Origin: Ischnura elegans
Lineage: Eukaryota; Arthropoda; Insecta; Odonata; Coenagrionidae
Reading direction: 5' to 3'
DNA length: 64,000 bases
Assembly (NCBI RefSeq): GCF_921293095.1
Contig: NC_060251.1
Location: forward strand, 87,902,566 to 87,966,565
The position numbers and the translations under genes are program-made. Shown here piece by piece: positions 22,757-54,600 of the stretch; position 1 is the first letter of the stretch, and every line of letters begins with the position of its first letter. The notes beneath the pieces were generated by a model, which saw only the letters and a program-made list of their open reading frames with translations, did no database searches and was not told where the DNA came from.

Positions 22757-25700
22757 ATGGTGTTGGATATCGAGCTTTTTCGTCCAGAGAAAGGTGGAGA
22801 TCTTAACTATGTTCGGGAAAATCAAAAAAGGAGGTTCAAAGACGTCGGTTTGGTTGAAAATGTAATAGAGAAAGACAATAAATGGAGACAGCGTAAGTAT
22901 CCTTTTATAGCATTGTCGATTTGTTGTGAATCATATTACCTTTTCGGTTCCCAGTACTTTTCTAACCTCCTTGTGCCATCGTGCAGAGGTTTTCCGACGT
23001 TAATGAGAATGCTGTGTGAACTGATCGCCGTACAGAATTTGCACCTAATTGGAAGTAGTGAAATTAAATATCCGTTTTCGTTTACCGTGTATTTTCAGAT
23101 CGCCATAAAGCTGATGGATGGAATAAATTGAAGAACATATGTAGCAAAGAAATTGGCGAGAAAATGAAGGTAATAATCTCAAAATGAATTCGGGAAGACC
23201 CTCTTCTCTGTGTCTACTGTCAACTCAGGTCTAGACTTTTTTCCCTGTAATGGAATGTTGAGTATTGGAACAGTAATGCTTCTCTGGTGAAACTGCTCCT
23301 GAAACATGAATTTTGCTTTTTAGATGCCAAGTATGAGTTTTCTATGACATGGTTGTGTTTACCTCCGCACATTTTCGATACAATTTAGTGGGAAGTATGG
23401 CGTTATTCATGGCCTTCTTTGAGGCTCTTCTTCACATTTTCCCATGGCATAAATGTGGGAAAATGTTTATGCGTACAGTAGTTTTGGTACCCCCTTCCCT
23501 ACATATATTCACCATTTCCTCAGGCAACAGGTTAGACAGTGCACTAGCTCCTTTCAGTATGCTTGGTGGGAGGTTAACACGTTGAATATAGCCAATTTCT
23601 AGACTAGCAATGAAACTTCCCACCCCATCATGCCGGTTATAGTGATTGGTTACTAAACGACTGAATCCCAGAGGCTAAGGGTAACTACACGAAGTTGTTT
23701 TTGGCATGAACTGTGCCTGAAATTATGGTCATCATGGCCAAAATGCCTAAACGTAGAGTGAAATTTATTTTACGTTAATTAAAAATAATATCTCTATGTG
23801 ACGTGAATAAATAATATGTAATTGGTGAAGAAAATGCTTATGGGATCACAGGAAACATTGACTAAAACATCTTAGTGGTCAACATGTTAAAAACTAGCAT
23901 TCCTCTTATTAATACGTTGCGGACCGGGTACATATTTAATTCCAATCTCATCGGGTAGGACCGGGCATTTAAAGCAGCTTTAACCTAAATGACACTGATA
24001 CACCAAAACCCTCATAAAATGTTTATTTTTTAACATATTTTAATAAAATTTGGTGCATTTTACTTACCAGAGGTGTTAGTACTTAGTTTTTGAATGGTAT
24101 TTGGTGAAACATGCTCCTTTGTGCGGGGGAACCTTGCAGAATCCACAGATATACCGAGTTTCCTTCCTAAGTTTATTAGCAGAATAAACTCGACACATCC
24201 GCGATGGATATTTCTTCTTCCCATACCCCACTATCTTCTCTAGAGTGTGTTTCATCATTCCCCCTGCTAGCCTTGCCAGACTATCCTGCCGAGGCGCTTG
24301 CTGAGTCGGCCTTTCTATCCCGCCCTCTGTGTCATCATCGCTGGAAGATGCACTTCCTCCCTCCTCACATATAGCCCAGCCCTTGGCTACTTCCAAAACA
24401 AATTTTTTGAAGGTCAAACGGGTAGAAGTGTTCAATGTTTTGCATACCACAAAATAATTAAATAGGGCACAATTGATCAACCATAACACCACTTTTTTTG
24501 TGCACTTCATTGTTTTTCTTAGTACTGAAAAGTAAACCAAGTACATATCAGCTTTATCTACACCTCCCATGTACTTATTGTACTCCAAAATACAAATCGG
24601 TTTTTTCTGTATCTGTCCCGTCCATCTGTTTCGCTTTCCTTCGCCCATACTCGAGTTATGGATTGTGGAAATCATCCTCACCTCTCTCTTGTCATTCCAC
24701 GCAAGCAGCAGAACTTCCCCCCGTCTACAGAATGTGTAGTCACCTTTCTTCATACTTTTTATTTCATGCCTAAATTCAGTGGGAAGCCCCCTGTTGGAAT
24801 GGATGGTTCCACAAACTTGAGTTCTTTTCGTTAGAAGATTTTCAGCTATTTGTACGCTATTGTAATAATTATCTAGGAACACATGATGCCAACAGTGTAA
24901 ATACGGATCTAGAAGGGTCACTATGGTTTCCTCTAATTTTTTTCCTTTAGCTGTATATATTTATATGTTGCAAATATAACCACTTTCACTCTCACACACC
25001 ATTCACACCAATAATCCGTACTTCACCAATTTCCCTGGATTGTATGTTCTAAATCTCAATCTTCCCCTCCAAGGTATTACTCCTTTGTCTAGAGAGAGAT
25101 CACGTTTAGGCATATACACAGTTTTAAATTTTTCTAAGAAATATGATAGTACATATTGGTCTAATTTTATGTAACCTATCGGAAGATTCAGAATTTGATT
25201 CGTTATCACTGAAATGCCAATAATTCCAAATTTGTTCAAATCTGTTCCTGCTGAGCAAATTACTAAAAATGGGTGTATTGATAAATTCATCAGTGCTCCA
25301 ATATTCCTTGATTGAATCTTTCCTGACTTTTCCCATCAAAATTATGATTGCTAAAAAAACTTTCATCTCTCCCACCGTTACATTTTTCCACTTCCCAGTT
25401 TTCTGGGAAGACTTGTATCTGCCTTCGTTCTACATTCGATACAAATTGATCTCATTACAAATCATTTCGAGAAGATCATCCCCAAAAAACATTTTTGCCA
25501 CTTCTAAAACACATTCACAATTATCAGGAGCATTGATGATTCCTACCACTCCCTGAAAATCTTCGAAACTTCTTGGAAGGTCAATTTTATTCCATGTCAC
25601 CGAGGTGTCTTTCACTAAACTACCGTCGCTATCACTTGCATCCGAGTCACTGTCATCAGTGTAAACTAACTGTGCAGCTTTTCTTTTAGGTTGTCTTCCA

Positions 25701-28700
25701 CCAATATCAAAACCAATTTCACTATCTGAGCTCTCACACTCGTCTACACAATCATCTGGCACATCTGATAATGCATCAACACAAAGTTCTTCGTATATAT
25801 GTATCCTTCTCCGTCATTCCGCAAGCACCACCACTAGTTGGTCACGCCATTACTATAGATGAGGTCTTGTTTTTGGAGTAATTTTTCGGTTGACAAGATA
25901 CGCAGGAATTATTGCTGGAAATTAATGAAATTTACGTAGGCTATGTATGCATGCACTTTCACAGGGTAAACGTAAACCAACTTTCATCCAAGGAAATGAT
26001 TCCTCACTAAAAAACGTGACTTCAGATCTCTAACGAAGAGAGTAAAAAACTCAAGAACGTTCCAAAGGAGGACTAATATGCATTCTAGGCAAAGGGAAAC
26101 ATTAGAGACTAACAAAGATAAGCGTTGTGGCCATCTGGTCCTTTTCTATCGAGGACCGAAAGATAGAGTCCCGCTGAAATGACCCTCATAGTCCTTGGCC
26201 CTCGAGACTCGTTGATGTGTTTACGTTGAGCGCTGGAGATAGGATGTCTTGTGAGAATCTAGATCATGGTGCGTATAAAAGACAGCCTAATGCACCCAGA
26301 GGTGAAATATGCATTAATTACTTTGCTCCATACATTATAACGTATGGCGCAAAGTAGGCGATGAGAGAATTACCGACAATAGATTTTGTTAGAGCCAAAT
26401 GAAAAGGACCGAAGAAATCCAACCAAAATTATTCCTTATCATCTAAAATATTATAATTTGTAATTTCAGAACATTGTTGAATTTAGAGAGATGCTGTTAT
26501 AGAAAAATGAATGTTTAATCGAGTTTTTTTCACAGGTTACGGCTTAGTGACATTTTGTTCCTATACATTAGTAATCTCTAAAAGTGGATTACGTTCATCG
26601 AAAAAATATTAACAAGTTTATAATTCGAATGGGATAAAACTAATCTAAATCAATGAAAGCACATTCTGAAATACACCAGAAGCAAAAGCGAACATAAGTG
26701 GACATAAGTAACTAATATAAAAAGAAGCAGAGTAAGTTTTATTATCACATGTGAAAACACTGAAATCTCTGTGGCCGGTCCTCAGCGTTCGGCACGCAAA
26801 ACACGGAGATCTCCGTGACCGGTCCGCAACATGTTAAGGTCAAACTTTGTATCATTGTCCAGCGATATTCCTTTTGGGTTAATTTCCACATTCTATATGA
26901 AAATGCCAATGTTTGAACCTGATGCTAGAGACTTCCTGTGGGCTAATGATCTCCCTTAATTGCACGTCGAGTGAATATATCATCATGGAGGTTGGAAGGG
27001 ATTGAGAAGGTTGAAGAAGAGTTTGAAGGGTGTGTTGTTTCTTGGAAGTTTAATTCTTTGTGTGATCATGAAATGAAATTACACTGTAATTTCTCATTAC
27101 ATGTTTTGGACCAAAATCCTGACATCCCTTGATTTCAAACTTTTTAGATTTGAGGTCCTGCACTGGAAATTTTCACTTAATGTATATAATTCCTTTCCCT
27201 TGAGCTACAACCTTGTCGTGGTGGAAAGGCTTGCACATCTGGAGCTGCTCTGGCTGGATTAATTCTAAATTATTGCCAGTAGGACCACCTATGCTAGATA
27301 GGTCGAAGGGTTGGAGCCAGACAAAAGGTAGTCCATGTGATGGTGTCACGTAAAAAACACTGTTGGAATGAAAGTAGGAAACCCCAGCTACTATCTCTTC
27401 CCTGAAAACATGAAGTACAACCAAGTGAGCCTCGGAATCTCATTGACCGGGACCCGTCTGCTAAGGGCGAGTGTCGTTCAAGGCAGCGAGGTCAGCAAGG
27501 TCCTCGGGGTCGTCAACATGAGAAATCCTTGCAGGGACTTTTTATCATCAGCAATGAAGAAAGAAGAAAAGAAGACCAAGAAGATGGAGAAGAAGAAGTC
27601 CGCTATAAATGCAGGGACGTGGGATGTGAGGAAGGGGAGGTGGGGAAGTTAGAAAATATTAAAAGGGAAATGGATAAAGGGAGGATAGATATCTTAGGAG
27701 TATGTGAGGTGAGGTGGAGGGATGGGGGGACTATTGGAGTGATGGTTATAGGGTTATATATAGTGGTGGGGAGGAAAGCCAGTGAGGGGTAGATTTAGTA
27801 TTAAACAGGAAGATGGGCAAGCATGTGGTAGGTATAGAACAGGTAAGTGATAGGATTCTGGTGGTAGGAATTGAGGCATGGCCCACCAACCTTGTGGTGG
27901 TTCAAGTTTACATGCCCACTAGTTATCATAGGGAGGAAGAAGTAGATGAGGTGTATGAACAGCTCGAGGAAATAATTAGAGAAACCCTGGGTAAGAAAAA
28001 ATCTGGTAGTGATGGGGGACTGGAGCTCCTCAGTTGGGGAGGGGAGGGATGGACACGAAAGAGGAGAATTTGGACTAGGAATGGGCAATGACAGGGGAGA
28101 GAAAGCAGCAGAATTTTGCAGGATAAACAAATTATTCATCACAAACACATGGTTTAATCATCATAAAGGGCGAAGGTAACCAAGGAAAAGTCCAGGGGAT
28201 GTGGGGAGATATCAGGTAGACTATGTTATGGTAAGGTAGAGGCTTAGGAATAGTGTGAGAAACTCGCATAGCTTCCCCGCAGGGAATGCAGATATAGACC
28301 ACAACCTAGTGCTCATGAAATGCAACGTAAGATTCGAAAGGCTATGAAAGCCAGGAAGGTGAGGAAATGGAATGTAGAAGAGCTGAAGGTGAGTATGAGG
28401 AGAGAATATCAGGAACTTGCTGAAAATAGCATCCGGGAGATTGAAATTACAAAGACTGTTGCTGAAAGATGGGATAATATTAAAACAGGATTAGTCAGCT
28501 GAAAAGTCCATTAGCTACGTTGACAGTAGAAGGATAAAGAAGTTTTTGGATTATGGAGGAAATGGTCAAAGAAATGGAGGAGAGAAGGAAGTGGAAGAAC
28601 ATGGATGCAGAGCAGGGGAAAAGAATGTATAGGAATGGTAATGGAGTGAAACTATAAGGTGAATGGAGGTTTGGTGGAAAAGTCAGTGAGAGGAAATGGA

Positions 28701-31700
28701 AAAGTTTCAGAAGGGAGGAGGGGTAGGTGCGTTGTATACCAAAGTTAAGTCACTATCAGGCAGCAAAAGAGGAAAAGCCATGTCTAAAATTTAGGCTAAA
28801 GGTGGGAGGTTGATGATGGAAGAAACAGGCCGGAGATATTGACTTCAGAGGAGGAAAGTGCAATGGAGAGGAACAATCTTGGGCCAGGGATCGAGAAACT
28901 TGAATCAGAAATCAAGAGAGCATATATAGAAGGCTAAGAGATGTGAAGACTAGTAAAGCAGTGGGCGTGGACAATATCCCGTGTGAGCTCCTGAAGAATC
29001 TAGGGAAGGATAGTTAGAAAAGATTTTTGATCTAGTACGCAGGATCTATGAGGAGGGATGTTGGCTGGAGGATTCCATGAAGACAGTTATAACTCCGCTA
29101 CTGGAAAAGAAGAAAGCTGTGGAATTCAGATTATAGGACTATTAGCCTAATAATGCGTGTGTCGAAAGTGGTAATGAGGATATTGAACAGACGAATGGAG
29201 GCGAGGGGAAATGAGTATTTGGGCAAAGAGCAATTTGGTTTTAGAAAAGGGAAGTTAACTCGTGATGCAATAGCAATGATGAGGTCCCTGGTGGTGAGGA
29301 ACCTAGAATATGACCAAGACGTGGATTTTGAAATAGCATTTGATAGGATAAACTGGGTAAAGTAAATGGATATACTCAGGAGAATAGGTGTAGATTGTAG
29401 GGATTGGCGACTGATTCGTAAAATGTACATGACCCAGACTGCGCAGTTGAGAGTAGCGGATGGAGAATTTGGGTGGGCGAGCATAGGCCAGGGAGTGAGA
29501 CAACGTTGTCCTTTATCGCCACTGCTTTTTAACATATACGCTGAGGATATGGTAAGAGAAGCGTGGAACGAGTTGGAAGCTGGAGTGAAAGTGAGAGGGA
29601 TGATGTTTAAATTGGTAAGGTTCGCAGATGATCAGGTGCTGATTAGTCAGCGGGGGCACTGCAGGCTCTAGTGGATGGGAGGTACACTAGCGGTGCGACG
29701 AGTATTAATGGGATGACTATTAATCACAAGAAGACCAAGGTTATGCAGTTTTGTAAAGCATTGCAAGCAAGGAATGTGAGACTCAAGATAAAAGTAGGGG
29801 GGGAAAAACTTGAGCTGGTAGAGCAATTCAACTATATGGGCAGTACATTAGATGAAAATGGACATAGTGGTAAGGACATCAAGAAGAGAATTGATTTAGG
29901 TAGTTAAGGAGGCATTCATGAAAAGGTAGGAGCTTATGAGAGGATTGCTGTTTAAGAGTTTAAAGAATAGATTAGTGAAGAGTTTGGAGTGTAGTGCTCT
30001 ATGGTGCAAAATACGTGGGTACTTAGGAAGGAGGACAAGATAAGACTGGAGGCTTTTGGCATGTGGGTGTGCATAGAAGGGAGAAAGTGAAGTGGACAGA
30101 GAGAAAGAGAATCTACGAAGTGCTGTACATAGTTGGTGAGGAGAGGCAGATTTTAGATGAGATTTGGAAGAGACAGAAGGTATGGATAGAGGGAGTACTT
30201 AAGCAGGGAGTGCATATTGAAGACAGTGTTAGAGGGTAGAATGTTAGGTAAACAAGGGAGCGGAAGGAAGAGAATAGGATTGTTTTAGATATAATCAGAG
30301 TGAGTAAGCCTAATAGTGAACTGAAGACGGAAGTGCTTGAAGGTGGGGGAGGCTCCCAGAAGGCTTCTCAAGTATACAGACCTATATTAATTGGTAGAAT
30401 ACTTAAATGATAATGCATTCAATTTATCATTGTTTTAGGAGTAACTTTATTGAAACAGCTAGAAATTACTTTTGGAGTGTAAAGTGTTGTTTTATCTTTT
30501 GACAGCATCTTAATACTTGAATGAATGAGTAACTTTTGTAGTTTACAGGGCCTAATATTTTAATTGCATCATAATCTTCAAGGAAGTCATTTAATTTCAG
30601 GCTGGAAGGAAAGGAAGTCAAAAGCCTGTAAAATCTAACAATAGTGCAGATTCAAGAGAGTGGTTTTCTGCAAATGGAAAAATAAATTTATCTGTTTTGA
30701 ATGACAAATTAGCTAACCAAAGTTATTTAGTGGGACATTGTCCCACAGTGGAGGATGTTACAGCATTTAATGCCTTAACAGAGCCTCCTTCCACTCAATA
30801 TCCTCATGCTGTGAGATGGTTCAGGCACATAAAGAGCTTTGGTGATGACATGTCTTCATTTCCAAAGCAGGTGAGGAAGTCATCATTGACACATGTCTGA
30901 TATATTTTGTCTCCTACCACTTTCTAGTTAATTTGCACAGTATCTTCACTTCATTTATTATTTTTTGCTTTTCAAGAATGCTTTGCATCCCTTGGAATGC
31001 CCTAGGCTTCAATGAATAACAAGTACATAAGGCTAATCAGCCTGTTTCCCTTGGAAATGTGCTGACCCATTGGCTTTAAAATTGGAAATTGTAATCGATT
31101 CCCCATTTGCATTTGTTAATTATTTATTCCATTCAAAAAATTAAAGGATTTACTGCTACCAATGAAGTATCAACATTATCCTTATGCAAAAATGGCGATT
31201 TAATGTAGAAGTAGTGTGTTTATTTCCTCACTAAAAATCATATAATATTTAGGAAACAATTCAAGTGCTGTAGATACCTAGCCAATGATTCAAGCACATG
31301 CAGCATTTTTGCTTTGAAATATTATTTTTTCTGTGAGAGTTTGAATCAGAGTACGTATTGGCATGTTTTGCTTAGGTGTTAGGTTAGGTTTGCATGAAAT
31401 TTTTAGGCAAGGAATTATACCTTCCTCAGTGCTTACCATCTTTTTGATTCCCACGGTATCCCAACAGTTTCACACTGTATCCCATCATCATCCCAGCATG
31501 TATGCAGTGGGAGCCAATAAGATGATCAACCCTTCATTCTAGCTCCAAGGAAGCCTACACCTCAACATATATATTTATTCCAAATTCAGTCTTTGTTTTC
31601 TCTTAGCTCGAACGCCTACTACAGCAGACTCTCGTTAATACGAACAACGTTATTACGAAGCAATTAGTTGGTCCCGATGAAAAGGCCTATCCAATCCATA

Positions 31701-34700
31701 GTAAAAGAAACGTTATTACGAAATTACGAACCTCAGCCCCGGTCCCGGCGGTTACAAAATGAAATTATGAACTTCCACGAAAAAGCAACGGCATTTAGGT
31801 GGATATACACTACGCTACGTTATCATCATTGATCAACGTTTAAGTTCTCTTCTTATTCTGTGCCCAAGAGCGCCAATTTTGGTTCTTTTTTCAGTAGGAG
31901 ATACTTCAATTGCACGCAACATCATATTATAAGCTTCGTTCCTGGGAAATTATGTTGACCCATTCATTAACTTTCGTAAATTGGGCGTACAGTTAGTCCT
32001 CTTCCTAAGCACATTGGATTTATGAACTTTCAGAGATACGATCATTAGAAAAATTCAAGCGCCCCCGAAATTTCAAATTTAGTGCCTTTGGAGATTGCCG
32101 ATGCGACACGACGTGGCGTAGAGGAACTCGCACTTTGGGCATAATCTGAACTAAGTATCATTTAGTCCAGTGTGAAATCAGGAACTGTTCAGCGTTTCGC
32201 TCACTGTTTCTTCCCATGGCAATTTTTTCGGCCCCGGCTATGATGCAAGGTAGATCAGTTCGTCATAATCGCAAGTTGACGTGCGATTGTGATGCATTGT
32301 TGCATTCTGCAGGATAACCACTCTCCTCGATTCCTAGTATAGGTTACCAACTTAGGAGCAAGTTCTGGGAATGCATCTTCTTCGGTTATCTAGGATTTGA
32401 GCATAATTTAATAGCGTATATTATACTCTGAAGATTATTAGTGTGGGAGATTGAAGAGACAAGAGATTTTGACAAAGTACGTTTTTTTTTTCGATGATTC
32501 CTAAAAGAAACGTTCATCCGAACTTCGTTATGACGAACCCGTCCGTTTTTCGGTCCCGTGAACTTCGTAATAACGAGTCTACTGTATGTGTTTTTTTTTG
32601 CTTGTTTTGTTTTGATTGTATTAGTTGATGCATTACATAGTAAAATGTTTTGTAAGGAATGAGAATTTCTTGATAGCTGCACTGTCCTGTTACATGTATC
32701 CCTAAAATTTTTGTGAAGCTTCCTCTTTCCCAATTCACCGCTTTAATTTGGACATGAAGTCAGACTGTGCCCTATCTTTTTAAAGTGAATTCATTTTCAA
32801 TCCTTGGCATGTTCTGAGTGGCATGATGAACTACAGATATTGACCAGAAATTAGAGCAATCTTTTTAAAACAAAATTTCCCGGTCTACTGTTACTTGGTG
32901 GAAATTATGAGATGCAGATTTTAATTTATATATATTAAGTAAATTATTTGTATAAGGGGGGTAGAGGAAAATTTTCTCGCGGCATGAAATTGATTATTAT
33001 TATTAAAGCATTCTACCAATTAAGGTAGGTTTCCATGGAGTACTCAAGAGCGCAGAGTGCAGCATCACTACCAGCCTATGATAACATCACCTATCTCATG
33101 TGAAAGACTTTTCTCTAAGACTGGTAAAATCTCATCTAGAAGTTACCTCTCCTCACCCACCATGCCAAGCATTTCATCGTTCCTCCTCCTCTCCATCCAC
33201 TTCACCTTATCCATTCTTTGCCACACCCTTATCTCGAATGCGTCCAGTCTTATCTCGTCCTCCTTTGTCCTGTTCCGTGCCCAGCACTTCGTAATTTGCC
33301 CTCCTCTCTGTCCACCTCACCTTCTCCATTTATCTCCACATCCAAATTTCAAAATAATAATTAAAACATTGATTAATTTGTTTAATCAATGTTACTTAAT
33401 CAGTGTCCTGCTTCTTCAAAAAATTTGATTGACATAGGCAAAGATTTTTGTGTATTTAATGACTCTGCATCACTCATTATCTTTTTGGGCTGAGATAACT
33501 ATTTATAATAGCATATATTCTTCTGTAATAGTTACAGGTTATTCTCCTTGTGGCAATATAGATTTTCACAGTTTTTTGAGCACTGATTAGGTGTTATGTG
33601 GAGGGATTTTCACGTGAACCAATCCATCGGTTGGAAAGGTCATTTAGTCATGGCTTCTGCCATTATGAACGGGCTGTTGCCAACACCAGGTTTCAAATGA
33701 TTCTAGCTGTTAGTCTTCTCACGCACATTTCTTAACATAGAAAAAAATTTAAGTAACTCCTGGAAATACTTCCGTAGAAATGTTCTTAAAACCAATTACT
33801 TGGTTAGCTTGATTCTGTGATAACAATTGTTAGCTTCGGAACCTTCAGATTAGTTTATAAAAGGACAAGAATATTGATGTGTTTCTACTGAGAGAATAAC
33901 TTCTAAGAATCTCTACATTTCTGGAGCAGCAATATGTATATGAATAAAAATCTGTTGTTAATCATGCACTCTTTTTCCTTGGGTTAGTACAGTTTGTATC
34001 CCTTATTTATTGATCTGTGGATGATATATCTTTGTATTTTCACATTAAAAATTAGTATTTATATATTCTTTAAAATGTTTTTTTTGTCTCATTAAAATCT
34101 AGGAAAATCAAATTGCTACATTCATTAGTTTTGTAGTGAAGAAAAATAGAAATATAATTTCTAGTGTTTAGGTATGAATGGGTACTCAATGCATTCCAAA
34201 CTTGTTTGGAAAACTGTCTTTAAATACAAGTATTGCATTGTAGTCAAACTAGTGCATGAAAAATGAGAAATTCTCAAATGAAGTTCTTTAAAAAAATAAA
34301 CCTCATTACTTTATATCAATGTCGATTTAGTTTTTTTCACAGACTTGATAGTTATTGAACTCAGAGTTTATACAAAACTCTGTTAAATTAGTGTGGAAAG
34401 AATCCCATAAAATGTATTTGTGATTTTGATTAAATTGTGTAATTGAACTCAATACCTAAAATTCAATTTAAAATGTTTGTTTCAGAAAAAACAACACAGC
34501 CCCGATGAAGATGATGTACTTCCAGCGGAAGTGGTGAGCAACCTAGAATCGTTGAATGCCGAGAAGATGAAAACCTTAACAGTTGCTCAGATAAAGAAAA
34601 TAAGAGTCCTTGTAGATGAAGAAATGGTGAAGAATGAAGCAATCATGCAACAGCTTGAACAGGAGAGGAATGCTGCTCTAAGAGAAATAGGAAATCATCT

Positions 34701-37700
34701 TCATAAGTCTGTTCCTATTAGTAATGATGAGGTTAGTATGGATTATGGTTTTGAAATAGTATGTATTATTTTGCAATATAATTGGCGAAAGCAGTGTAGA
34801 ATGTATTAGTGGGTAATACATGAGATTTTGTGGCACTTGAATGGTGTTCATGAATGTTTTATACTCTTTTGTACATGTCGTACATTCCTGCTAGTGATTT
34901 ATGCTCAACTATCCAAGAAAATTCTATGGGTATGATAATAGTAAAATAGTGTTGTTCATCACAATTCTGACCAAATGAAATTAACCCAATATGATGCCTG
35001 TTGTAAAGGTTAATGTGAAAAAAATGAAAGTGATTCCGTGAAAAGTTGTGTGTATGTTAAATCAATCTGTTTTTGTATTTCTATTCCAGGATGAGAATGG
35101 AGTAGAAAGAACATTCGGAGACTGTACAACAAGGAAGAAGTATTCTCATGTTGATCTGATCCACATGATTGATGGAATGGATGGTGATAGGGGTGCAAGC
35201 GTATCTGGTGGAAGAGGATACTATTTAATGGTTTGTGGCTTTGTAAAAATATCTATGTGCATATTTTTTTTTAAATTTTGTTTTCAGTCGGAAAATTTAT
35301 TTTTTCCACATTTCAAACTTTTTACCCATGAAGATGAATAGTTTTTCTATTTATTGACGACATTGGTAATAAATTTGCTGTTTCAAAAATATCAGCACAC
35401 TGTGTAAATAAGTATTTACAGTAGACTCTCATTCATACGAACAACGTTATTACGAAGTTCTTGTTGTTACGGAGCAGTAAGTTGGTCCCGACGAAAATGC
35501 CTTTTCAAGCAATAGGAAAAGAAATGTTATTACGAAGTTTTCATTTTTAAGAAATTACGAACCTCAGTCCCAGTCCCGGCGGTTAAAAAATATAATTTAT
35601 TGCGAAGTTCCATGAATAAGCAATGGCATTTAGGTGGATATACACTACGCTAAGTTTTAATAATCACACCACATTTAAGTTCTTCTCGTGTGCCGTGCCC
35701 AAGAGTGCCAAGCTTGTCGTCCCTTCCGGCTTCATTCTTCACAGAACCGTTTTGTTTACAAGTGAAGTAGGCATTTTCCTTTCTTACCTGACAACCTTGC
35801 CCCCTAACCCGATCTAGACCATTCTCCCTGTCATCGGTCAACTCTCTTCACCGTGACAGTAGGTTTATCAACTTACCAACTAGGTCTTGGAACATATTTA
35901 GTTCGTTATCGAGGACTTACTATACTCGGGAATATATCAACCCTCGATTGCATCATGCCACATTCTTCTATTGAGAAACTGAAACGAATTTTCCTGTTTA
36001 TATTCATTTTCGCATAATTTAATCACGTTTATTATATACTGTTTTATTTTTTTCAACGATTCCTAAAAGAAACGTTCGTATGGACTTTGTTATTACGAAC
36101 CTCCAGTTTTTCGATCCCTTGAACTTTTTTATTTTTATTTATTTATTTATTTATTTATTTCATCACCAAAAACGGCACAAAGGCCTTTACATTGGCTGTT
36201 CCTAAATAAATAATATATAAAAGATAACAAACAATAGCACAGTAAATGAAAAGTAACAGTAAACAAAATTTTTAAACGTGAGAAGGGGCACTATTGATTA
36301 GACAATGGTGAATTATTGAGATGGTATTTTAAGGTGGCTTTGTAACTAGTAGCAGAGGAAAATGGGTCCAGGGAAGGGATTTTCGAAGCGATGGAGTTAA
36401 ACAAGGAGGGGATTCGGAAGAACAGAGAGGGTTGAGAGATGGAGAGACGGAATCGCGGAATGTGAAGCAGAGAGTTGTTTTGTAAGGGGCGAGGAGGAAT
36501 ATGAAATCAGAAAAGAGGGAGAATTTCGTTTGTCCGTAGAGAACCACTAAAGACTTTATGTAGAAACATGAGATCTGATAAGAAACGGCGGCTTGTTATG
36601 TTAGGTATCCTGAGGGAGGAAAGGATAGCGTCACGGGCGTAATATCTGAGTGTGGGGATTCGATGGCGGACTACTGCAAGAAAGAAGTTTAAAGGACGGT
36701 TGAGCAAGCTTAGAGTAGTGGGGCAGGCGGTAGACCAGACTGGTGAGCAGTATTCAAGTATGGGGAGAATACAACCGAAAAAAACTGTTCTTAATGCGGT
36801 AGGGTCGTGAAGGTCTGTTAGTCTATAAAGCATACCAACAATGGCCATTGCTCTCCTCACGATCAGCGAAATATGATCATGAAATTTTAATTTATCGTCA
36901 AAAATCACACCTAGGTCGCAGTGGGAGGTTACAAGGGGGATAGGCTTATTTAAAAGGCAGTAGGAGTGCTTCAGGGGATTGTTTTTCAACGTGAATGTCA
37001 TCATCACCGATTTGGAGGGGTTGACCCGCATCAGCCAAGTCGAGCACCAATCGGTGATAAAATTGAGTGCCGATTGAAGGGAATGTGAGTCGGTGGGGCG
37101 ATCCACTCTTTTAAAAATCTTGCAATCGTCCGCGTACAACAGAACATTGCAGCCAAAAGGCACATTCATGAAGTTTTTTGTCAATACAAAATGGAGAAAT
37201 TTAACATGTATTGACATGCATCCTGTATTTTGATGTGTTTTATAAATCAAGTTTTCCCCAGCAATGATGGGTAAGTGCTATGAATTCCTTAAAATATTCT
37301 ATTTCAAAAATATATTTTTCTTATCGGGTGAAAAACAACCTGCACATAAAAAATGTTTTAATTTTTGAACGTATTATGTACTAGATACATGTTGTAAATA
37401 TTTTCTTATATATAGAAAACAGTTAACACAAGCATTTCACCACACTTGAAGGAGGGCCCAAGACTGACTACCAGAGTCGTGAAAAGGGATTTTTTTTGCA
37501 TAAAATTTTTTTTAACAACAAAGCAAGCAAAAAGCCATGAATTTTATTTTTACAGGTGGTGGGTCATGCCTTAAGGAATATTAGAAAAAATAATTCAGCT
37601 TGATTCAGATATTGCCTCAGGTCAAAATTTGATGTTTTATAGAACCATGTTTTTGACGCAAAATTTTCTAAAATCTTATGAAACATACGAGTTTAGAGAA

Positions 37701-40700
37701 TTTCCAATATTCCTTAGGATATTTTTCAATTAGTTTTTGGAATCCTCATGACTTCTTTAGTAAACCTGCAAATTTTCATAAGAATCGGATGAAAACTATG
37801 GCTGAGACAAATTATTTCCCTCTGGAGGTACAAGTGCCTCTGGAGACCGCATTCATTGAAAAACTGCAGTTTCACCCAAACTTCAAATGGCCGTGAAAAA
37901 AAAACTATTAGAGATAGCCAAGAAATATTTTACACTGTTTCATTCCTGCATGGAAGGATGAAAATTGGCAAGTTTCATCAAAATCCGAGTCGGTGGGTGT
38001 CATGCCTGGATGAACTGACATGGAATGACCCCACTACTAGAAATATTTCCATTGCAGGACACAGAGGCAGGGATTCTGTGTGACCTTAATAACGAGAGTA
38101 TACTGTACCTAAATTTATTATTCTCAACTATTATTTTGATCACACTAATATCATTGACGATGTCCATGGGACATTGACAAGGTCTGGGATGGGCTGGAAT
38201 ATTAGTCGTCAAAATTAGCATTTTTCTTTCATTTTCTCCTCATAGACTTCAGGGGAGTGATAATAAAAAGTGGTTGCGTTTTTTGTGTAATTACTCCCCT
38301 AGGTCTATCTAAAACAATGGATATTCATTTTATGATAACAGCTTATTATGCAGTCATGCTCTCTAAAGCCATCTTCTGAACATTGAAGAGAGGCATATTG
38401 ATAGCTGAAGTATTTAACCCTTAAGCAGTGGTGCTGGCAATTTTTCTTGCGTAACATTTTGCTTGTGCACATGATTGACAGCATTCCTTAGTCTTCTTAA
38501 AATTATTTTGACTGAGTATGAATCACATTTCACCTGTCCAGGACTAAAATCGCCACAACCAATATGTCTCCTGAACCTCATTCTTGGTGGTGCATCAATT
38601 GTGCTGGTTAATCTTGTATAGCAGTGTGGTTATTGGATTGAAAAATGTGTTGTTGTGATAAGTATAACTTAGAAATTGTTTCCATGTGTATGGATAGTCT
38701 ATCATCTGATACAGATTTTTTAAATATTCAAGTTTGATTTTTCTATTTGTCATTAAAGTTGTATATAATAATAAATTTAATAGGTACATATATCAATTTC
38801 CCGGGCTTAATATTTTGTATTTAGTTGTACAGCTTTACTTGAAAAATCAAATTATCTCATAAATCACAAACAAAAGTCTGGATAAGTCCTCTCGCAGAAA
38901 AATAGGGAGCAAAGATATGTACGACCGAGCATCAGTGTTCACCATTAAATGAATCTCATTATTTTCTCATGTCAGCAAGGATTGTTACATTATGTTTGCT
39001 TAAAGTTATACCATATTTGTCTGAATATAGCCCCCCCTTTTTTTTCCAATAATGCCCGTGGTAAAAGTAAAGGGGAAACTAAATTCAAACCCATTTTTTG
39101 AATTTTTTTCCGAAACTCAAACCTCAAAATTAGGGGGGGGGAACATACTCGGAGAAATAGGGTACCTCTTTAGAAATAAGTGTATTTAAAGATATTTTTA
39201 CAGTATTAGCACTGTTGCAGTGAGTGCATCGGAGTGAATGCTTGAGGGTTAAGATAAACACTTTATACAAAATCTTAATAATATGGTAGGAGTCATGGGA
39301 AATACTTTTTTGCTGAAATTTGTTATGGCCCTCAACTCCTTCATTACTTTTTTCATGGGGCAGTCTTGAGGTGCCTCTTAATATTTGTTTCCTTTATTAT
39401 TAAGTTATTGCATGAATCTGAGACTGTCTTCCATTTTGGTATTGATGCCACTATTGAGGGAAAAGTGTCCACCAATCAGAATTCATGCCCTACGGATACC
39501 CTTAAAATTTTGAATGCTTCTGAATTATGTTTGCTGTCATTATTTATTGCCATTTTGCTAGACTGGCTCACAAATTTTTATAAACTGATTTCCTCAGTTC
39601 TTTATCTTTAGCCCTCAAATTATCATCCAAAATGGGTCTATGTACTAATTTGAGCTCCAATTTTTTGTGAGTAGTCTTTTAATTGTGATTTAATATAACT
39701 CTCATGAATGTTGTACTGTGGATTTCGCTTGTTCATTTTTCTCTAATTTATTTCAGGGGCCTGCTGTATTTTTGGAACAAGCACTTATTCAGTTGTCTCT
39801 AAAAATTTTATATGGAAAGAAATATAAACCTCTCTACACACCTTTTTTCATGAAAAAGGATGTGATGCAAGAAGTTGCCCAGCTCTCTCAATTTGATGAA
39901 GAACTTTACAAGGTAAGGATAATTTTTTAGAAATGTAACCTCTACATGGTAAGCGTTTGTCTTGCGTATTCAGCGTAATCCCGATTATCCGGGCTAATGT
40001 TGAGGAGAGGGGGCACTAATAATCGGAAAACACAATTAATCCCCTAACTTCTGCTTTAATTTCATTTAATTTTCAAAATTCATGTAAATCAAACTATTTT
40101 TTATTATTTATGCTCCTTGTCTGTTATTTTAGGTTGCTTTTCGGAATCATTCGTGTTTTTCTTTTCCCGACTGCAATTTGTTTAGCGGCGATAAAACGAT
40201 TGTACTCATATTCCTACTGCTCCATATGATATCTGGTTTCCGAAATCCACGCACCTGTATCTGTAAGATCACGGATTCAGAAAATTGGTTTGCACGAATG
40301 CTTCAAAACTGCTCTGCAGCTTCTAGCAGCAGAAACTACACTGTCAGGTATCACGCTGTTTAGTTGTCTCTCGTGCAAGTTGCCGGGTATGCAACTGCTG
40401 CAGGATGCGGATCCATGATCTTTGAGTGTAATCGCACACTACGATGCTTGGAAAAAAGGAGCTCGCAACTACTGTGAAGGCAACGGGTGTGCGATGTAAC
40501 CATTGTGCAGCAGTGGTTATAGGAAACCAGGACTTTAGGCAGTTTGTCTATGCAGGCGAGTGCCTGGCTATGACTCATGCTATCTCTACTTCCACTTCCT
40601 CTGCTGCCTTCACTTATTCTATTCCCTTCCTCTCCAGTTTGACCATGACTAGTCAGGGTGTAAGTACGTCTGAATGCGACGAAATCTCCGGTTCCTTTGG

Positions 40701-43700
40701 GCCATATTCGACCAAAAGCGAGGCCACGGCAATGATTGCACATTTGTAATATGAAATATACATTTATAGGTCATAGATGACATTTATCTTAATTTAAGAA
40801 TGGTTAAGCATCGAAGAATCCTCTGAAAATTAATCAAGAGTTTTTTCCCTCGCCGCTGATCATCATCTGCAAGCTTGAGCAGACATCCAATTAAACTTGG
40901 AACAATCCTTGTCAAAGTAAATAAAATAATTCCCTTATGCGAAGAGGATTCTAATAGAAATAATAAGCCCGGTATAGCTTTGCATTAAAATGCAAATATC
41001 CTTGTGCTTTTGTGTCCGATTAATTTTTATTATAAAGATCGCGGAAAACATCAAAGAAGTGTAAAACTCATGCACGGGTTAGCTGCAGTACGGATAACCC
41101 ACAGCGGGATAATCGGTAGTCTGCTGTATGTGACCATTAGCTCAATCTTTGTACTCAAATGCTCACTTACTGTAAATGGCTGTTTAGTTGCATCGTCATG
41201 CCTATGATAGATGAGATATGGTATTGACCTAATTTCATGTTGCCTCATACCCATTTTCTATTGTGTTGGACAAGAAATAAATTGATGTGTATATAGAATT
41301 TTTTTCTGAGGAAGCTAGGGAAGTAATGGTATTATTTTACTAGCATTGGTACTATTAGGAGTACATTATATTTTTACATTTAATATAATCCAGGTTGTGG
41401 GGAAAGAAGCCAGTAAAGAGGATGCCAGTGATACTGGGGAGAAGTATCTGATTGCTACATCAGAGCAACCTATTGCAGCATTCCATCGTGGGGAGTGGAT
41501 TCCAGAATCCAGTTTACCTATCCGCTATGCTGGGCTTTCAACATGTTTTCGGCAGGAAGTGGGCTCACATGGAAGAGACACTCGTGGTATTTTCAGAGTC
41601 CATCAGTTTGAAAAGGTATGTTTCAAGAGTCAAACAAAAATTGCATGTGTTGTAGGATATTTAGTACTCAAGGGTCGGTTTGTTTCATCAGCTATAGGTT
41701 CCCGCAGTTTTTGGGCTTAGACTCACAATTGGTACGGAGGCCAATAAGAATCAGGACAGGAATAATTTGTACAAAATCCAATTTGAAAGCTTTTCATGGG
41801 CATAATTTGCAATACAGACTTAATATAGAGCAATGTTATGCATATGATCATATTATTATTATTACATGAATTGTATAAGTCGACCATAATGTCGGGTGGT
41901 AACATAAAATCAGGAAGCACATAATACAGAGAAAAAGAACCAGAATATATATCCATGATAAAAATAACACCCTAATTCTAATCACATACAACTAAGAATT
42001 TAACATTATCCCAATAAAACAATTTTAAAACAATCCATTAAATACATTAATTCTAATATAATACAACTAAAAAATAAGCATTGACCCAACTTCAAACTCT
42101 CTTTTTGAACCATTATTTACTAAATCAATAGGTCAGTGCTTCACACTTCTTCCTAAAAATTTTGGCATTTGAAGGGAAGATCTTAAAAATCACTTCAGGT
42201 AGGTCATTCCACTCTTTAATTCCTCTATGCAGGAAGGATTTTCTCAAAATGTCTGTTTTCTGTTTTTTCAATTGAATTTTAAATTTATGGTCTTTCCTTC
42301 CTATGTAGCAGGGTGAGCCCAGCTTTAGACCTAATTCTTTCCAACCCTGCTCTTTTGTGAATGCTTTGTATACCCCGCATAGCCTATTAATGGTTCTTCT
42401 CACTTTTAGAGGTTTCCATCCTAAGCTCCCTAGCATTGCTGATACACTTTTCCCTCTTCCATGTTTTCCTAGAGTGTACCTGGCTGCCTTTCGCTGAACC
42501 CTTTCAAGCTTAGAAGATTCATTGTTAAAGTGGGGATCCCACACAGAAGTTGCATATTCAAGTTCAGGACGAACCATGGTCCTGTAGGCCATTTCTTTAG
42601 TTTCTCTTTTGCTCTCTTTTATATTCCGCATGACCCAATGCAGGGTTTTAAATGATCTCCCTATCACCTGATCGATATGCACTCCCCAATCAAGATTAGA
42701 TGTGAAATTAACCCCCAAGTATTTTAAGTCCCTAACTTTGGAAATATTTTCCCCGAGTAAGCTGTATGACCGATTCTCCGTGTTTCTCCTTCTCGTGAAT
42801 GTAATTTGCTTGCATTTTCCCGTATTCACATCCATTTTGTTGGAGATTATCCATGAAGATATTTTTTTCAGGTCATTTTGAAGGATACACGGGTCTTCCC
42901 TGGCTTTGATACTTCGGTAGCTTATGCAATCATCTGCGAAAAGTCGTATATTGGAGTCAACTCCCACATGGATGTCATTAATATAAATTAGAAACAATAG
43001 CGGACCTAATACGCTTCCTTGCGGGACCCCTGATGTTACCGCTATCTCCATAGAATAACCTTCACCTACTCTTACCCTCTGAGATCTACCTTTCAAAAAT
43101 TCCCTAATCCATACTTTAATCCTATCATCTATCTGTAGCCTACTAATTTTCTCTATCAATTGAGCGTGTGGCACTGTATCAAAAGCTTTTTTGAAGTCAA
43201 TGATCACCGCATCAATTTCACTGCCTTGATCCAGGACTTCAGCAATGTCTTGCGATAACCCTAGTAACTGGGTCTCACAAGAAAAGCCCTTCCTGAACCC
43301 GTGTTGATACTTGAATAGCCAATCATTTGTGGCCCAAAATTCGCGCAAGTACCTAGCGATAACTTTTTCAATTAATTTACACACTACTGACGTTAGGCTT
43401 ACTGGTCTATAATTATCTACTTTAGTTTTATCACCCCCCTTAAAAATAGGTATGACGGTTGCCATTTTCCATTTGGAAGGTAAGTCCCCATTATTTAGTG
43501 TGACTAAAACAAGTCTTCTAATGTAAGGAACTATTGCTTCATCCCCTAATTTTAATGCATCCATGGACACATTATCAGGACCCATTGATTTATTTCTCTG
43601 CTGTTTCCGTATTAGTTTTAAAATTTCATTATCTGTCACGCTTATATAGTCGAATTTATTTTGTCCACGGCTAGATAATAATAATGAGGGTTCACAATGT

Positions 43701-46700
43701 TCGGTGTTAGAGTTTGAATCAAAATTACCATCCCTATCCTTATAGCTCCTAGCGTACCACTTATTTAGTTCGTTTGCTTTGTCTTTGTCATTTAAAATAA
43801 CTTTCCCACCTTCACTCACGATCATAGATATGTCGTTATTAATATCTTTTTTCCTTCTAATATATTTGAAAAATTTATTAGTATTTTTCTGGCTTAGCAT
43901 ATTTACCAGATAGCTCTCCCGGGCTTCCCTTTTTTCAATATTAAATCTTTTAATTATATTTTTATAAGTTTCAAGGTTTTTAGGGCTTATATTTCTTTGT
44001 TTATACACACGCCTTGCCTTCCTTTTCAGTCTTCTTATATTTACATTATAATACTCTGGATCGCTGTTATGTTTAAGCCTTCTCCTAGGAACGAATTTTT
44101 CTATACACTCGAGCAAAATATTCTTAAAAGAATCCCAAATTTCATCCAAAGTAGCACCTTGACCCACCCATTTTGGAAAATATTCTCTTAGCATGTTTTT
44201 AAAAGCTGTCACATTTCCTTTCTTATAGTTCCAGATGAATTTTTCAACTTTTTTCTTTGACTTAGTGGGTGACAATTCTAGCTCAATAGAAACCGCCGAG
44301 TGATCACTTATACCCGGTATTATCTCAAAGCTTTGCACACCCTTAAATGGCCTTATAAGGAACACATCTAATATTTTACTTCCTCTCGTTGGTCCCTTCA
44401 CAAGCTGCTCGAATCCCTCTTCATAAACTAGTCTATTTACAAGTTTTTGAACCTTGCCATTGCCTTTAGCATTACCATCCCAATTGGCATTTGGCAGATT
44501 AAGATCCCCTGCTATGAGGATTTGTTTGTTCGGTTTTTCGGCGCATGCATCCGCCAAAGCCTCTAGTATACTCATATCCTCATCCGGTTTTCTGTAAAGT
44601 CCAATTAAATTTAAGGTTTTTCCTTTTTCCTTCGTGTATATATTTACACTCAGCATTTCGAAATCTGCCCTTACCCATTCTAGGCTACTCAATAAGTTAG
44701 ACTTGACGCAAATGAATACCCCCCCTCCCCTGTCAGTCCTGTCCCTCCTGTATACATTGAACTCATCTGGAAATATTTCTTTCGAGTTGATATCTTCTCT
44801 AAGCCACAACTCAGTGCCTACTACACAGTCAGGATTACACAATTCAATTAGCGACTGAAATTCAATAATTTTGTTTCTTATGCTGCGGCAGTTAACCTGA
44901 AGATATATATGGGTTAATTTGGTGCCTTATTGTTGGTAGCTTGGAGATCAAGGGTGTTTAACGTCAGGGTTTTCAGAATTTTTCTCCCAATGGTTTTTAG
45001 TCTCCTACCTCCGTGCAAATATCAGATCTTGAGTTCTTCTGGAACTTGTATCCATCTGTGGGTCAATCACACAAGGGACGTAATGTGCCACAGGTATGCT
45101 TTCCATGTTACCATGATCAGTTTATCTCACCCGTTCAAATACTTACCAAAATGTGGCGACTACCTGCAGTACATCTACGGAGGAGACCTCCAGCCCAGAG
45201 GCCATCTATTCTCTGACCCATCATTCTTTGATATGGTTACCTTTCTCAATACCTGTCAGTAATGAATGATGAATTGAAACTATCAAGTTTATGCAAACAA
45301 AGTATACAGCTGACTTACTGAAGTGTATGGTTTTCTGGTGTGTGCAAATTGACTGCAAAATATCAGCACAGGCAACCCACATATCTTCATCCCATAGCAA
45401 ATTTCTGGCTACGCACCATGAGTCCACTGTAGCTGCTACATTTCTGATTTCCATCTTCAATCTATACTAGCTCTGTGCTCATCCTGCTGCAACGCAACCT
45501 GTGAAACATCCGTTTATTGAACCCCTTAACCCTTTCGCTGCTGTGAACATACCTTTTCATCCTCCCTACAATGCGCTCAGCACTTACGCCACATGTGATG
45601 GGTAGGTTTCCGGAGAGTGAACAGCAGTGAGAGGGTTAAAATAAAGATCCCAACAAATTTATTATATGGTTAAAAGAATCAAGACATACCTCATAATAGT
45701 GAATAAAAATGGTATTCCCGATATATATGTTGATTCTGCGTTGTTCACAGGGTACAATGTACTTATATTTCTCATAGGTTGAACAGTTTTGCCTTACCTC
45801 TCCTCTGGAAGATAAGTCCTGGGAAATGATGGATGAGATGATTGCAAATGCTGAGGATTTTTATCAGAAGCTGGGAATTCCATACAGAATTGTAAATATT
45901 GTTTCTGGTGCTCTGAATAATGCTGCCTCAAAAAAATTAGATCTGGAAGCTTGGTTTCCTGGTTCAGGTGAATATGATAACTTAAAATTTTTTTATATGA
46001 TAATTTTTAATATAAATTTTTTTTATGTACAATAGGATTATTATAATATGTATTTTATTGTGGTTTTGGACTATTATAGTTCCCTCTATGTCTTGTTGAA
46101 AATGGTAAACCATTTAAAATTTGTTAACATATTGTAGGTTAAGACATTAAACTCTCAGTATTGGGAATAAAAATTTGGTATTCGAGCCTTTTATGCATAA
46201 TATTCTCAAAAATACAATATGGAACTTGCATATATTTCAGATATCTATCTAACAACAATCTAACAACCCCAAATATATTTTAAAATATATGTTTGTGTGT
46301 CACGGTAAATTTAAAAAATAATTTTTGACGTTATTTTCGATATTTTATGCACAAAGGTTAAGAAAAAAACTGCTGTTTCACAAAATAAAATATATTTGCG
46401 ACCGGTTTCGATACAGCGTATCATCATTGATACGCTGTATCGAAACCGGTCGCAAATATATTTTATTTTATTTTGTGAAACAGCGAAGTCTTTTCCTTAA
46501 CCTTTGTGCATCATGAAGGAGTTTCACCATGTTACGCCAACCACCATCGCATTGATATTTTATGCTTTAAAGTTTAAGAGAATTTTCAAACTCAAGAGAG
46601 AATCAAAAACACCTGATGATTGATTGGTAGAAAAAAGATGTCTTCATTCAGTATGCTGCAGACGAATACTTGAATACAAGCGATGGCGTGGTTATGATTT

Positions 46701-51647: not shown

Positions 51648-54600
51648 ATGGAGTTCGAAGTGTTATTTAACGTTAGCTCACTGCTGTGGGTCGCTCTTCA
51701 CATCATTCTTCTTCAACCTGCGTCACCTCATGGAGTGTCTGACATGTAGGTTCCTAATTCCCTCTTTCTCTGTAAACACATACCTATTTATGATACTTTG
51801 TTACCTAGATTTTTTATTCTCGCTTTCAGAATAAATGAAAAGAATACGACCTGCGCCGATATTCAAACAAAGTTTGCATTGGCTGCGCAAGAATTTACCT
51901 ATTGTTCCATTAGTAATGCTAGACCCATAACATTTTGTGAAAAATGTGTTGCATCGTACCTGAATGTTTCGATGGCTCACCAGGAAATTTTGAAGGTGAG
52001 GCATTCGAGCTACTAACCGAGTGGTTGCTGACTTTTGTATTAGCAATTAAATAATTTTTCTTGTAGGGAAAGGATAATAGTATCAATTGCCGGGATCAAT
52101 TAATCAACGTTGATCGTCTACAAATTATAGAGACTCTGAATGCTAATATAGAGAAACTGTGGTCCAGAGGAGAATGCAACCGTAAGTGTTATCCTCTTGT
52201 TCGCACTACTAATGACCTATTTAATACTAATGATGATTATTACTTCTTAACTCCATGGTTGTAATATTTATGCTGTCATTGTTCCAGGTTGCTTCGAGGA
52301 GAGTGCTAATGGGTCCACGACCTCCAATCTTAATAATGTTACCAAGACATTCCAGATGATGAATTCAGTCGTCGCTAAGTGCATCAAAGACAACCAGCCC
52401 AAAGACAAACCAGATATTTGTGTAATATGTCGTGATTCGTATGAGAAGTTGAACGAGTTTTACAACGAATTGAAAATATCTGAAAAAAGTCCTTCACGCA
52501 TATGCATGGATATTGTTGATTCTGTAAGTTGAATGTGGACATGTTTCTGTGTTATATATCCATCCACAGTAAGTTTAATATCAGAAGGCTTATTATATTA
52601 TTATCATATGACCCCTCATGGAAATTGTCAGTTGATGACCACTGAGAACATAAATAGACTCCATGACTATAAACATTGATTTCTGTCGGTGGGCACTTGT
52701 ATTTCTCCTGCTTCTCATAGTCATGGAAATTTTTTTCTTGTGTGGCCAGGCAGAAACCAAATTAAGCCAAATTTTAGTCTAATGATCAAATAGATCAAGT
52801 TGAATCTTAGGGCCATATTCTCAGTCGACTCTGTATAGGGCCAACGATATGTCATCAGCCTCTACATAAGCCGATCTTGCCCAACATACGCCATAACAAG
52901 CCCTACATATGGCCGTTCTTGGAACTAAATGGCCCTTACTTGATGTAGGGTACCAGCCCTATACCCTACAAAAACATGGTGACCATAATAATGCATATCA
53001 AGGAGAAAAGCTCTCATGAACCATTTTAAAATGTACACGAGTAAAGGTGAGAGGTAATAATACTACCAAATTATACCCATCATGTCAAATCAATAATAAA
53101 ATTGGCAAAAGTGTAACGAGTGCAATGTGTCTGCAAATATATATTAATATTGTTCATATTTGGCCCTTGGTATGCTTTTGAGAAACCAGTACTTCGTTTA
53201 TGTATAAACATAGAAAGCATATTTTTAATTGTCTCATCATCATCACTGGTCAACAATCCTAGGATTGGTTTGACGCAGCTCTCCACTCAGTTCTCCTATC
53301 AGCTAATCTTTTCACACCTACGTATTTCTTCTCTTTCACATCTCTCTTTACTTGTTCCATATATTTTGTTTGAGGTCTTCCTTTTCCATTCTTGTCTTCC
53401 ACTTGTCCTTAGACGATTGTCTTCATCAGGCCATCATGTCTCAAGATGTGGCCTATAAGGTTGTTCCGTCTTCTTATTAAGGTTTTCATGAGGCTTCTCT
53501 TCTCTCCTACCCTTCTTGGGACTTCCTCCTTACTAACTCGGTCGATCCATTTGATTTTCATCATTCTTCTGTAGCACCACATTTCAAAGGCCTCTATCCT
53601 TGCTTTCTCCGCTGCGGTCATTGTCCATGCCTCACTTCCGTATAGGAGCATACTCCAGATGTAGGTTCTTATAAATTGTTTCTTTACATCCATATTTAAG
53701 TTTCCCGCTGTAAGCAGGTCTCTCTTTTGGTGGAACGCTCTCTTCGCCTGGGCTATTCTGCTGATAATTTCTTTCTTGCTTCTCCCGTCACTAGTTATCT
53801 TGCTTCCCAAATAACAGAAATCATCCACCTCTATCAGTTTTTGCCTCCCTATTTTAATGTTGGTCTTGACTTCTTCTCTTCTGCTGCATACTAAGATCTT
53901 GGTTTTCTTCGTGCTTATTTTCAGTTCATATCTACTCATTACCCTACCCATATTAACCAGAATATTTTTCAAATCCTTCTCTGTTTCTGCTATAACAGCT
54001 ATGTCATCGGCAAATCTTAGCATGCTAATTTTTTCTCCATGGATATTGTCTCATAATAAACTTAACTATGGAAGGTAAAAGCAAGTGACAAACCTTGATG
54101 GTGTAACGTAAGTTCCCACTTAAATAATCATATTTACCTCGCACTTATCATTATCTAATACAGACCGCTTTTGTATTAATTTAAAGACAATATGGTTCTA
54201 CTTTTGGCTCGATATGAGAGTATTTGTAGCAATAATAATGCACTGACACGACCTGGTGGAAGATTCCGATTGTTTCTATACCTTGAGCTGTTGCCCTAAC
54301 AGTACACCCGAAAATTATCAGATGTCTTTTCTTAGTTTCATAGTTAGGTCCCAATATGCAACCAGAGTGGAAAATTGGCACTGTGCCATAATGTACGTCA
54401 TGACCTACGTCATCTTAGAGAACTTGACGATTGAATCACCCCACACCACTTATATAGGGTCGACTGAGAAATTCATGTAGGAGCTTATTGTTATGAAGGG
54501 ATGGATATGTAGGGTCGACTAAGAATATGGGCCCTTGAGTCAAGCCAGCATGGAGGAAAGATTGATAGGGGTTAATAAGGGGCTTCTCTTATAATTAATG

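Follow-up and report, generated by a model that had tools for sequence, protein, structure and literature searches.

Does the cytoplasmic seryl-tRNA synthetase (SerRS) of a damselfly carry an optional domain that could tie the enzyme to translation elongation? The question is raised by an exon inside the SerRS gene of Ischnura elegans, found in a 64,000-nucleotide stretch of contig NC_060251.1 (positions 87,902,566 to 87,966,565 of assembly GCF_921293095.1; hereafter the window). A preliminary description, made from the letters alone, took it for a SerRS exon encoding a domain like the C-terminal half of glutathione S-transferase (GST-C) in elongation factor 1 (EF-1) beta, gained independently of a similar domain in cysteinyl-tRNA synthetase (CysRS). 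We found that this cassette exon encodes a GST-C domain of the kind present in EF-1B beta, and that the insert is an old, conserved feature of SerRS across insects and crustaceans, located at the same site.

Results

The cassette exon in the SerRS gene

Exon modelling, with the human SerRS sequence as the ruler, yielded a cytoplasmic SerRS gene of ten coding exons plus the cassette, every intron being GT-AG (Table 1). The cassette (window positions 30601-30870, forward strand) comprises 270 nucleotides, or 90 codons without a stop, with phase 0 at both ends and the borders tttaatttcag/GCTGGA and AAGCAG/gtgagg. It is placed between SerRS codons 69 and 70. The exon with K69 ends at 23169, the exon that contributes K70 to the skipped form starts at 34486, and the introns around the cassette measure 7.4 and 3.6 kb. 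The start of the latter exon aligns to human residues 69/70 onward, and the exon continues to the second arm helix, as positioned by the Cloeon model described below. Both forms remain open to a single stop (49289-49291), giving 590 amino acids with the cassette and 500 without it; the cassette is a phase-neutral exon with two open products, an arrangement of the kind reported for CysRS. The skipped form is identical to a database protein (P0002) annotated as 'serine--tRNA ligase, cytoplasmic isoform X2 [Ischnura elegans]'. The Pfam domains of this protein, PF00587 and PF02403, are the class II core and N-terminal arm of a cytoplasmic SerRS. An Rfam scan of the window gave no match.

Identity of the encoded domain

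A profile of 27 inserts from other long SerRSs (26 from named organisms and one with a transcript label only, the window being excluded) scored the cassette frame at 76.8 bits (E 1.3e-22). The second-best of 2119 six-frame stop-to-stop segments of the window reached only 6.6 bits, and a chance open frame was therefore rejected. Profiles of 16 insect domains, 11 crustacean-type domains and 7 C-terminal-type domains (see below) recovered the same frame at 84.5, 53.2 and 47.4 bits, with the next-best window segments at 7.6, 7.7 and 7.6 bits, respectively. Compared as a single sequence, the cassette product matched human EF-1 beta at E 1e-13, and the insert profile placed human EF-1 beta first at 7.9e-24, the next match being at 8.6e-7. 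EF-1 beta was followed by p43, AIMP3 and, lower, Arc1p, interspersed with ordinary glutathione transferases. The best Pfam family of the cassette was Arc1p_N_like (PF21972), with an E value of 1.4e-6 and 29 bits against a cut-off of 27. This family matched 8 of 9 inserts at E up to 0.01; on whole proteins it came above the cut-off in P0152, below it in P0005 and P0006, and gave no match in P0129.

The predicted structure of the 90-residue product (predicted local distance difference test, pLDDT, 85.0) contains helices at residues 30-39, 50-58 and 68-86. Its best fold match was 5dqs chain D, the GST-C domain from the N-terminus of EF-1 beta (eEF1B alpha), which by the title of the entry is in complex with EF-1 gamma. 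Entries of yeast Arc1p/GluRS, Plasmodium GluRS, p43, AIMP2 and AIMP3 came next; as VIA-align gave middling Z values below rank 1, no family was excluded on these rows. The EF-1 beta domain is thus closest to the cassette by both sequence and fold, and in either case only the GST-C half is present. A catalytic glutathione transferase was rejected, as about 60-65 of the 90 codons form GST-C, the flanks are SerRS arm and the helical fold comes without a thioredoxin half. EF-1 beta continues into a nucleotide-exchange domain. The cassette product, in contrast, is an insert in SerRS, the remainder of the modelled protein being SerRS without an exchange domain, and EF-1 beta itself was likewise rejected. 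The splice sites, open frame, phases and residue 69/70 site given in the preliminary description were all recovered in the rebuilt gene model, and the likeness to EF-1 beta and GST-C that it recognized was upheld by the profiles, the single-sequence match and the fold model.

Distribution of the insert among SerRS proteins

Two protein searches were made, each giving the best 120 matches of about 7800-8000 scored; long forms with very weak inserts, and groups such as chelicerates and myriapods, may lie beyond the rows covered. When the exon region alone was searched for within whole SerRS, 11 candidates came up, all of them with E above 10. We ascribe this to the exact-word step because long forms surfaced when whole SerRS was scored: with a whole long SerRS as the query, eight long relatives stood among the 120 matches listed. 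The inserts of these eight proteins were combined with a short SerRS block into a search profile. In a pre-test, the eight building proteins scored 300-356 bits and short forms at most 221, and in the database listing short forms make up the tail from about 221 bits.

Among 199 proteins collected, the insert profile exceeded 10 bits in 61, namely the exon (P0001), 53 SerRSs with an N-terminal domain and 7 with a C-terminal one. All of these scored at least 26.4 bits, clearly apart from the best of the remaining proteins at -1.7 bits. Pre-test and count are circular for the eight profile-building proteins (the count also for the window exon), leaving 45 of the 53 independent. Organisms are named for 26 of the 53, all of them insects or crustaceans and none holometabolous among the matches listed. 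They include mayflies (Cloeon, Ephemera), cockroaches (Diploptera, Periplaneta, Blattella), other insects (Timema, Anabrus, Schistocerca, Gryllus, Frankliniella, Homalodisca, Clastoptera, Ranatra, Laodelphax, Lygus, Planococcus) and crustaceans (Daphnia, Amphibalanus, Idotea, Cherax, Macrobrachium, Chionoecetes, Eriocheir, Scylla, Penaeus, Homarus). The other 27 rows are nameless or have only a transcript or function label, and the origin of some long rows is a transcript or metagenome collection (eukprot, merc, jgi, lgn). None of the listed rows naming a holometabolan insect possesses the domain, and these rows crowd the short end of both listings. Absence from Holometabola is likely, judged from the best 120 rows and from 90% clusters, which can hide isoforms.

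An oddity specific to the window was rejected, the database profile search having found the domain in many other SerRSs. The idea of a private novelty of this species was not borne out, whereas the assignment of the exon to SerRS was strengthened by the same domain in the N-terminal part of the 53 other proteins, 49 with the same arm end; the lack of conservation in related arthropods that would have counted against a functional exon was not encountered.

Insertion site, conserved residues and position in the arm

The reference arm (residues 30-69) precedes the domain in 49 of the 53 long forms, and the local alignment stops exactly at residue 69. In the remaining four (P0077, P0124, P0133 and P0142) the N-terminus is short or odd, and this arm is missing upstream of the domain. 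In whole-length alignments the insert gap opens less sharply, at reference residues 70-94, owing to weak conservation of the sequence that follows the insert. Core residues of the domain are well kept: D, R and W in 53/53, S in 52, H in 40 and Y in 39, with all six present in 38/53 and in 31/31 of a smaller SerRS set. Most losses of Y and H belong to a tree group of 13 rows, Planococcus citri (P0164) and 12 others, which read SF and RW..T or RW..N.

A tree of the SerRS core without the insert, built by a quick method under LG+G4, intermixed long and short rows roughly by taxon; 29 of its 95 inner branches were open, and the C-terminal outgroup drew a long-branch warning. A single old trait that was lost in places, with some isoforms hidden, would give such a pattern.

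When the long form of Cloeon was modelled (mean pLDDT 78.3), the helices of the domain fell within residues 87 to 152. The domain has weak linkers and is bracketed by the two long helices of the arm, 31-77 and 187-221. The model thus places the domain at the tip of the tRNA-binding arm, directly before the Insertion I region. Eukaryotic Insertion I corresponds to G75-N97 of human SerRS, in its tRNA-binding domain, according to the available text of one source (PMC10817482). Among the 35 long forms that could be anchored by pattern (18 of the 53 could not), the 16 residues that follow the arm element are net basic in 24 and neutral or acidic in the other 11, five of them decapods. The same 16 residues are net basic in 1 of 120 anchored rows (481-519 amino acids) without an N-terminal insert. 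In the window, positions 30601-30660 encode the cassette linker before the domain, at the place of the net-basic stretch in other long forms.

Isoforms and duplicates

Of the 53 long rows, 11 carry an isoform label, and some long forms are annotated 'isoform X1'. The labels X2 and X3 appear on short rows from Ischnura, Hetaerina, Neocloeon and Zootermopsis, and the X2 label of the Ischnura protein implies at least one further isoform. The X1 forms expected for Ischnura and Hetaerina were not among the matches listed; they may lie in 90% clusters represented by X2. The cassette is probably an optional exon, both forms being hinted at by such names, which also occur on SerRS rows that lack the domain. 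Long and short rows of Timema have a near-identical core, as splice forms would, one being named at the genus level and the other as Timema bartmani. The long Timema protein P0009 (732 amino acids) has two further insertions, which are probably annotation errors. In Diploptera punctata, the long (P0005) and short (P0015) proteins differ in core, locus name and contig, as if two isoforms were split between two genes.

A C-terminal form in WHEP-bearing SerRSs

Seven SerRSs (P0156, P0165, P0166, P0167, P0168, P0174 and P0184) contain a WHEP domain and an EF-1 beta-like domain of about 70 residues at the C-terminus. They come from marine or metagenomic sources, in rows without species names. WHEP was called by Pfam in all five of the seven that were scanned and by precomputed label in 7/7. 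For the C-terminal domain itself, Pfam made no call in the five scanned, and its identification rests on the insert profile and a reverse test. The seven domains scored 41.6-50.0 bits with the general insert profile, 46.6-57.7 with the insect profile, and 42.0-55.5 with the crustacean profile; scores in the reverse direction were 35.2-61.8 bits. A profile of the C-terminal domains gave 47.8 bits for the window exon and 42.7 bits for human EF-1 beta, inside the same range. The domain is of the same kind as in arthropod SerRS, but it follows WHEP at the C-terminus rather than interrupting the arm, an apparent second, independent gain. From their sources and long-branch position in the tree, the seven would be protists.

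Discussion

A candidate handle for EF-1 gamma

With somewhat better than even confidence, we read the cassette product as an EF-1B beta-type docking domain on the SerRS arm tip, pairing with EF-1 gamma when the exon is included and leaving SerRS free when it is skipped. The domain is read as an EF-1 gamma handle because its closest structure is an EF-1 beta domain in complex with EF-1 gamma and only the docking half of the fold is kept. With the exon included, SerRS would pair with the GST-like domain of EF-1 gamma in the same way as EF-1 beta, which uses its N-terminal domain for this. The pairing would link a fraction of all SerRS to the EF-1B/EF-1A machinery and permit direct handover of Ser-tRNA, while skipping would release free SerRS. 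Here we infer optional splicing in vivo, binding to EF-1 gamma and an effect on tRNA handover.

Several observations weigh against this reading. The core residues are not specific to EF-1, as p43 has 6/6 and human AIMP3 5/6 of them, and the choice of partner is unreadable from them. The Pfam family that holds the exon, Arc1p_N_like, is named after a protein that docks synthetases and is not known to dock EF-1. Docking may be altered in the 13 rows of the Planococcus group, where the partner may have changed. The listed holometabolan rows manage without the domain, which is thus dispensable there. Human EF-1 beta scores about as high with the insect profile as the window exon (85.8 against 85.1 bits), so that the inserts are not separable from EF-1 beta by sequence and a single origin rests on the shared site. 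Finally, ant and bumblebee rows labelled isoform X1 (P0034 and P0119) lack the domain, and isoform labels therefore prove nothing alone.

The main rival, which we consider unlikely, is that SerRS uses the domain to join the arthropod multisynthetase complex, through the GST-like domain of MetRS, GluProRS, AIMP2 or AIMP3, instead of docking on EF-1B. It draws on the above-cut-off Arc1p_N_like match and on the order of the sequence and fold lists, where synthetase-complex proteins follow EF-1 beta, with ordinary glutathione transferases among them in the former. GST-homology domains are also among those holding the multisynthetase complex together (PMC7373986).

Quite unlikely in our view is that the arm-tip domain mainly and directly alters the handling of tRNA-Ser or tRNA-Sec, or partners such as METTL6, with the basic linker on the tRNA and the EF-1 likeness a matter of descent. 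The domain splits the helical arm just before Insertion I (PMC10817482, as above), and in the available text of another source the stalk of human SerRS grips the long variable arm while METTL6 sits beside the stalk (PMC11479938). The excess of basic linkers in long forms fits this idea; however, a loop that touches tRNA needs no protein-docking fold, and the 11 neutral or acidic linkers, five of them in decapods, stand against it.

A relic exon, rarely or never spliced in, with the predicted isoforms as annotation artefacts, would agree with the holometabolan rows and the weak isoform labels. We regard it as very improbable, because without selection it is hard to see how the exon would stay open and in phase, with D, R and W invariant and all six core residues in most long forms of insects and crustaceans, and some of the long rows stem from transcript or metagenome sources. 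The notion that the exon is part of another transcription unit nested in the long SerRS intron has virtually no chance of being right, the domain being joined to SerRS in 53 proteins, 49 times directly after arm residue 69, with a phase that fits on both sides.

Comparison with known synthetases

Human CysRS reportedly has, from work of Kim et al. in 2000, a long isoform made by an optional in-phase exon whose GST-C-type domain is said to bind EF-1 gamma. CysRS is a class I enzyme with the domain inserted at another place, whereas the damselfly SerRS is class II and has it inside the tRNA-binding arm. Because of this location, the gain in SerRS is very likely independent of CysRS, as first proposed. 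ValRS, MetRS, GluRS/GluProRS, AIMP2 and AIMP3 likewise have appended GST-homology docking modules, but hosts and places differ.

In the text available from seven sources, GST-type domains are named for Cys-, Glu- (GluPro-), Met- and ValRS and none for SerRS (PMC4394549, PMC11580382, PMC10452860, PMC7373986, PMC10817482, PMC7160314, PMC11479938). In the parts of these at hand, Table 2 of AARS Online gives GST domains in CysRS, GluRS-E, MetRS and ValRS only, with SerRS absent from the holders of both WHEP and GST (PMC11580382), and a cGST domain is predicted at residues 1-213 of ValRS (PMC10452860). Searches of the open-access literature brought up no account of SerRS with an insert like GST-C or EF-1. 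The insert is apparently an undescribed feature, the long forms themselves being already in annotations; as far as we have seen, the kind of domain is known, and the host enzyme and the place are new.

A fuller history is possible, though rather doubtful. The optional exon would have been gained in the pancrustacean ancestor, letting SerRS join a 'heavy' EF-1 complex in competition with EF-1 beta on EF-1 gamma and channel Ser-tRNA to EF-1A in a tissue- or state-dependent way. The domain would have been regained C-terminally in a protist-like lineage, lost in the ancestry of Holometabola, and the forms split into two genes in at least one cockroach.

If docking on EF-1 gamma is true, SerRS of many arthropods would be added to the small number of synthetases that are linked to EF-1, and the apparent holometabolan absence would explain why work on flies missed the domain. 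Repeated use of the EF-1B module, reportedly in CysRS, in arthropod SerRS and in the C-terminal SerRSs, points to a recurrent tie between synthetases and elongation. Two natural SerRS isoforms would allow a direct test of aminoacyl-tRNA channelling.

Features of the window

Table 1. Coding features of the SerRS gene in the window
Feature	Position	Strand	Basis
Cytoplasmic SerRS gene (coding span)	22757..49291	+	exon model, GT-AG introns, one stop; skipped form identical to P0002
SerRS coding exon 1 (ATG)	22757..22892	+	exon model
SerRS coding exon 2, ending in K69; donor common to both forms	23099..23169	+	exon model
Cassette: low-confidence linker (about residues 1-20), then EF-1B beta-type GST-C (about 28-88)	30601..30870	+	profiles, fold model
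SerRS coding exon following the cassette	34486..34731	+	exon model, alignment to human SerRS
SerRS coding exon	35090..35230	+	exon model
SerRS coding exon	39757..39912	+	exon model
SerRS coding exon	41394..41615	+	exon model
SerRS coding exon	45778..45967	+	exon model
SerRS coding exon	48678..48775	+	exon model
SerRS coding exon	48876..49005	+	exon model
Last SerRS coding exon, with stop	49179..49291	+	exon model

Mobile-element sequences occur within and around the SerRS gene. The intron left of the cassette holds DDE_Tnp_1_7 transposase pieces on the reverse strand (24079-24960 and 25127-25429), which we take to be piggyBac-like. Another SerRS intron contains a LINE-like frame of 933 codons with endonuclease and reverse transcriptase domains (42128-44926, reverse strand). 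Outside the gene, also on the reverse strand, are a frame with a Mariner/Mos1-like helix-turn-helix (7216-7731) and a reverse-transcriptase fragment (53412-54050). An open frame at 89-379 of the forward strand shows a weak Acyltransf_C match (0.0003, below the cut-off) and is perhaps the end of a neighbouring acyltransferase gene.
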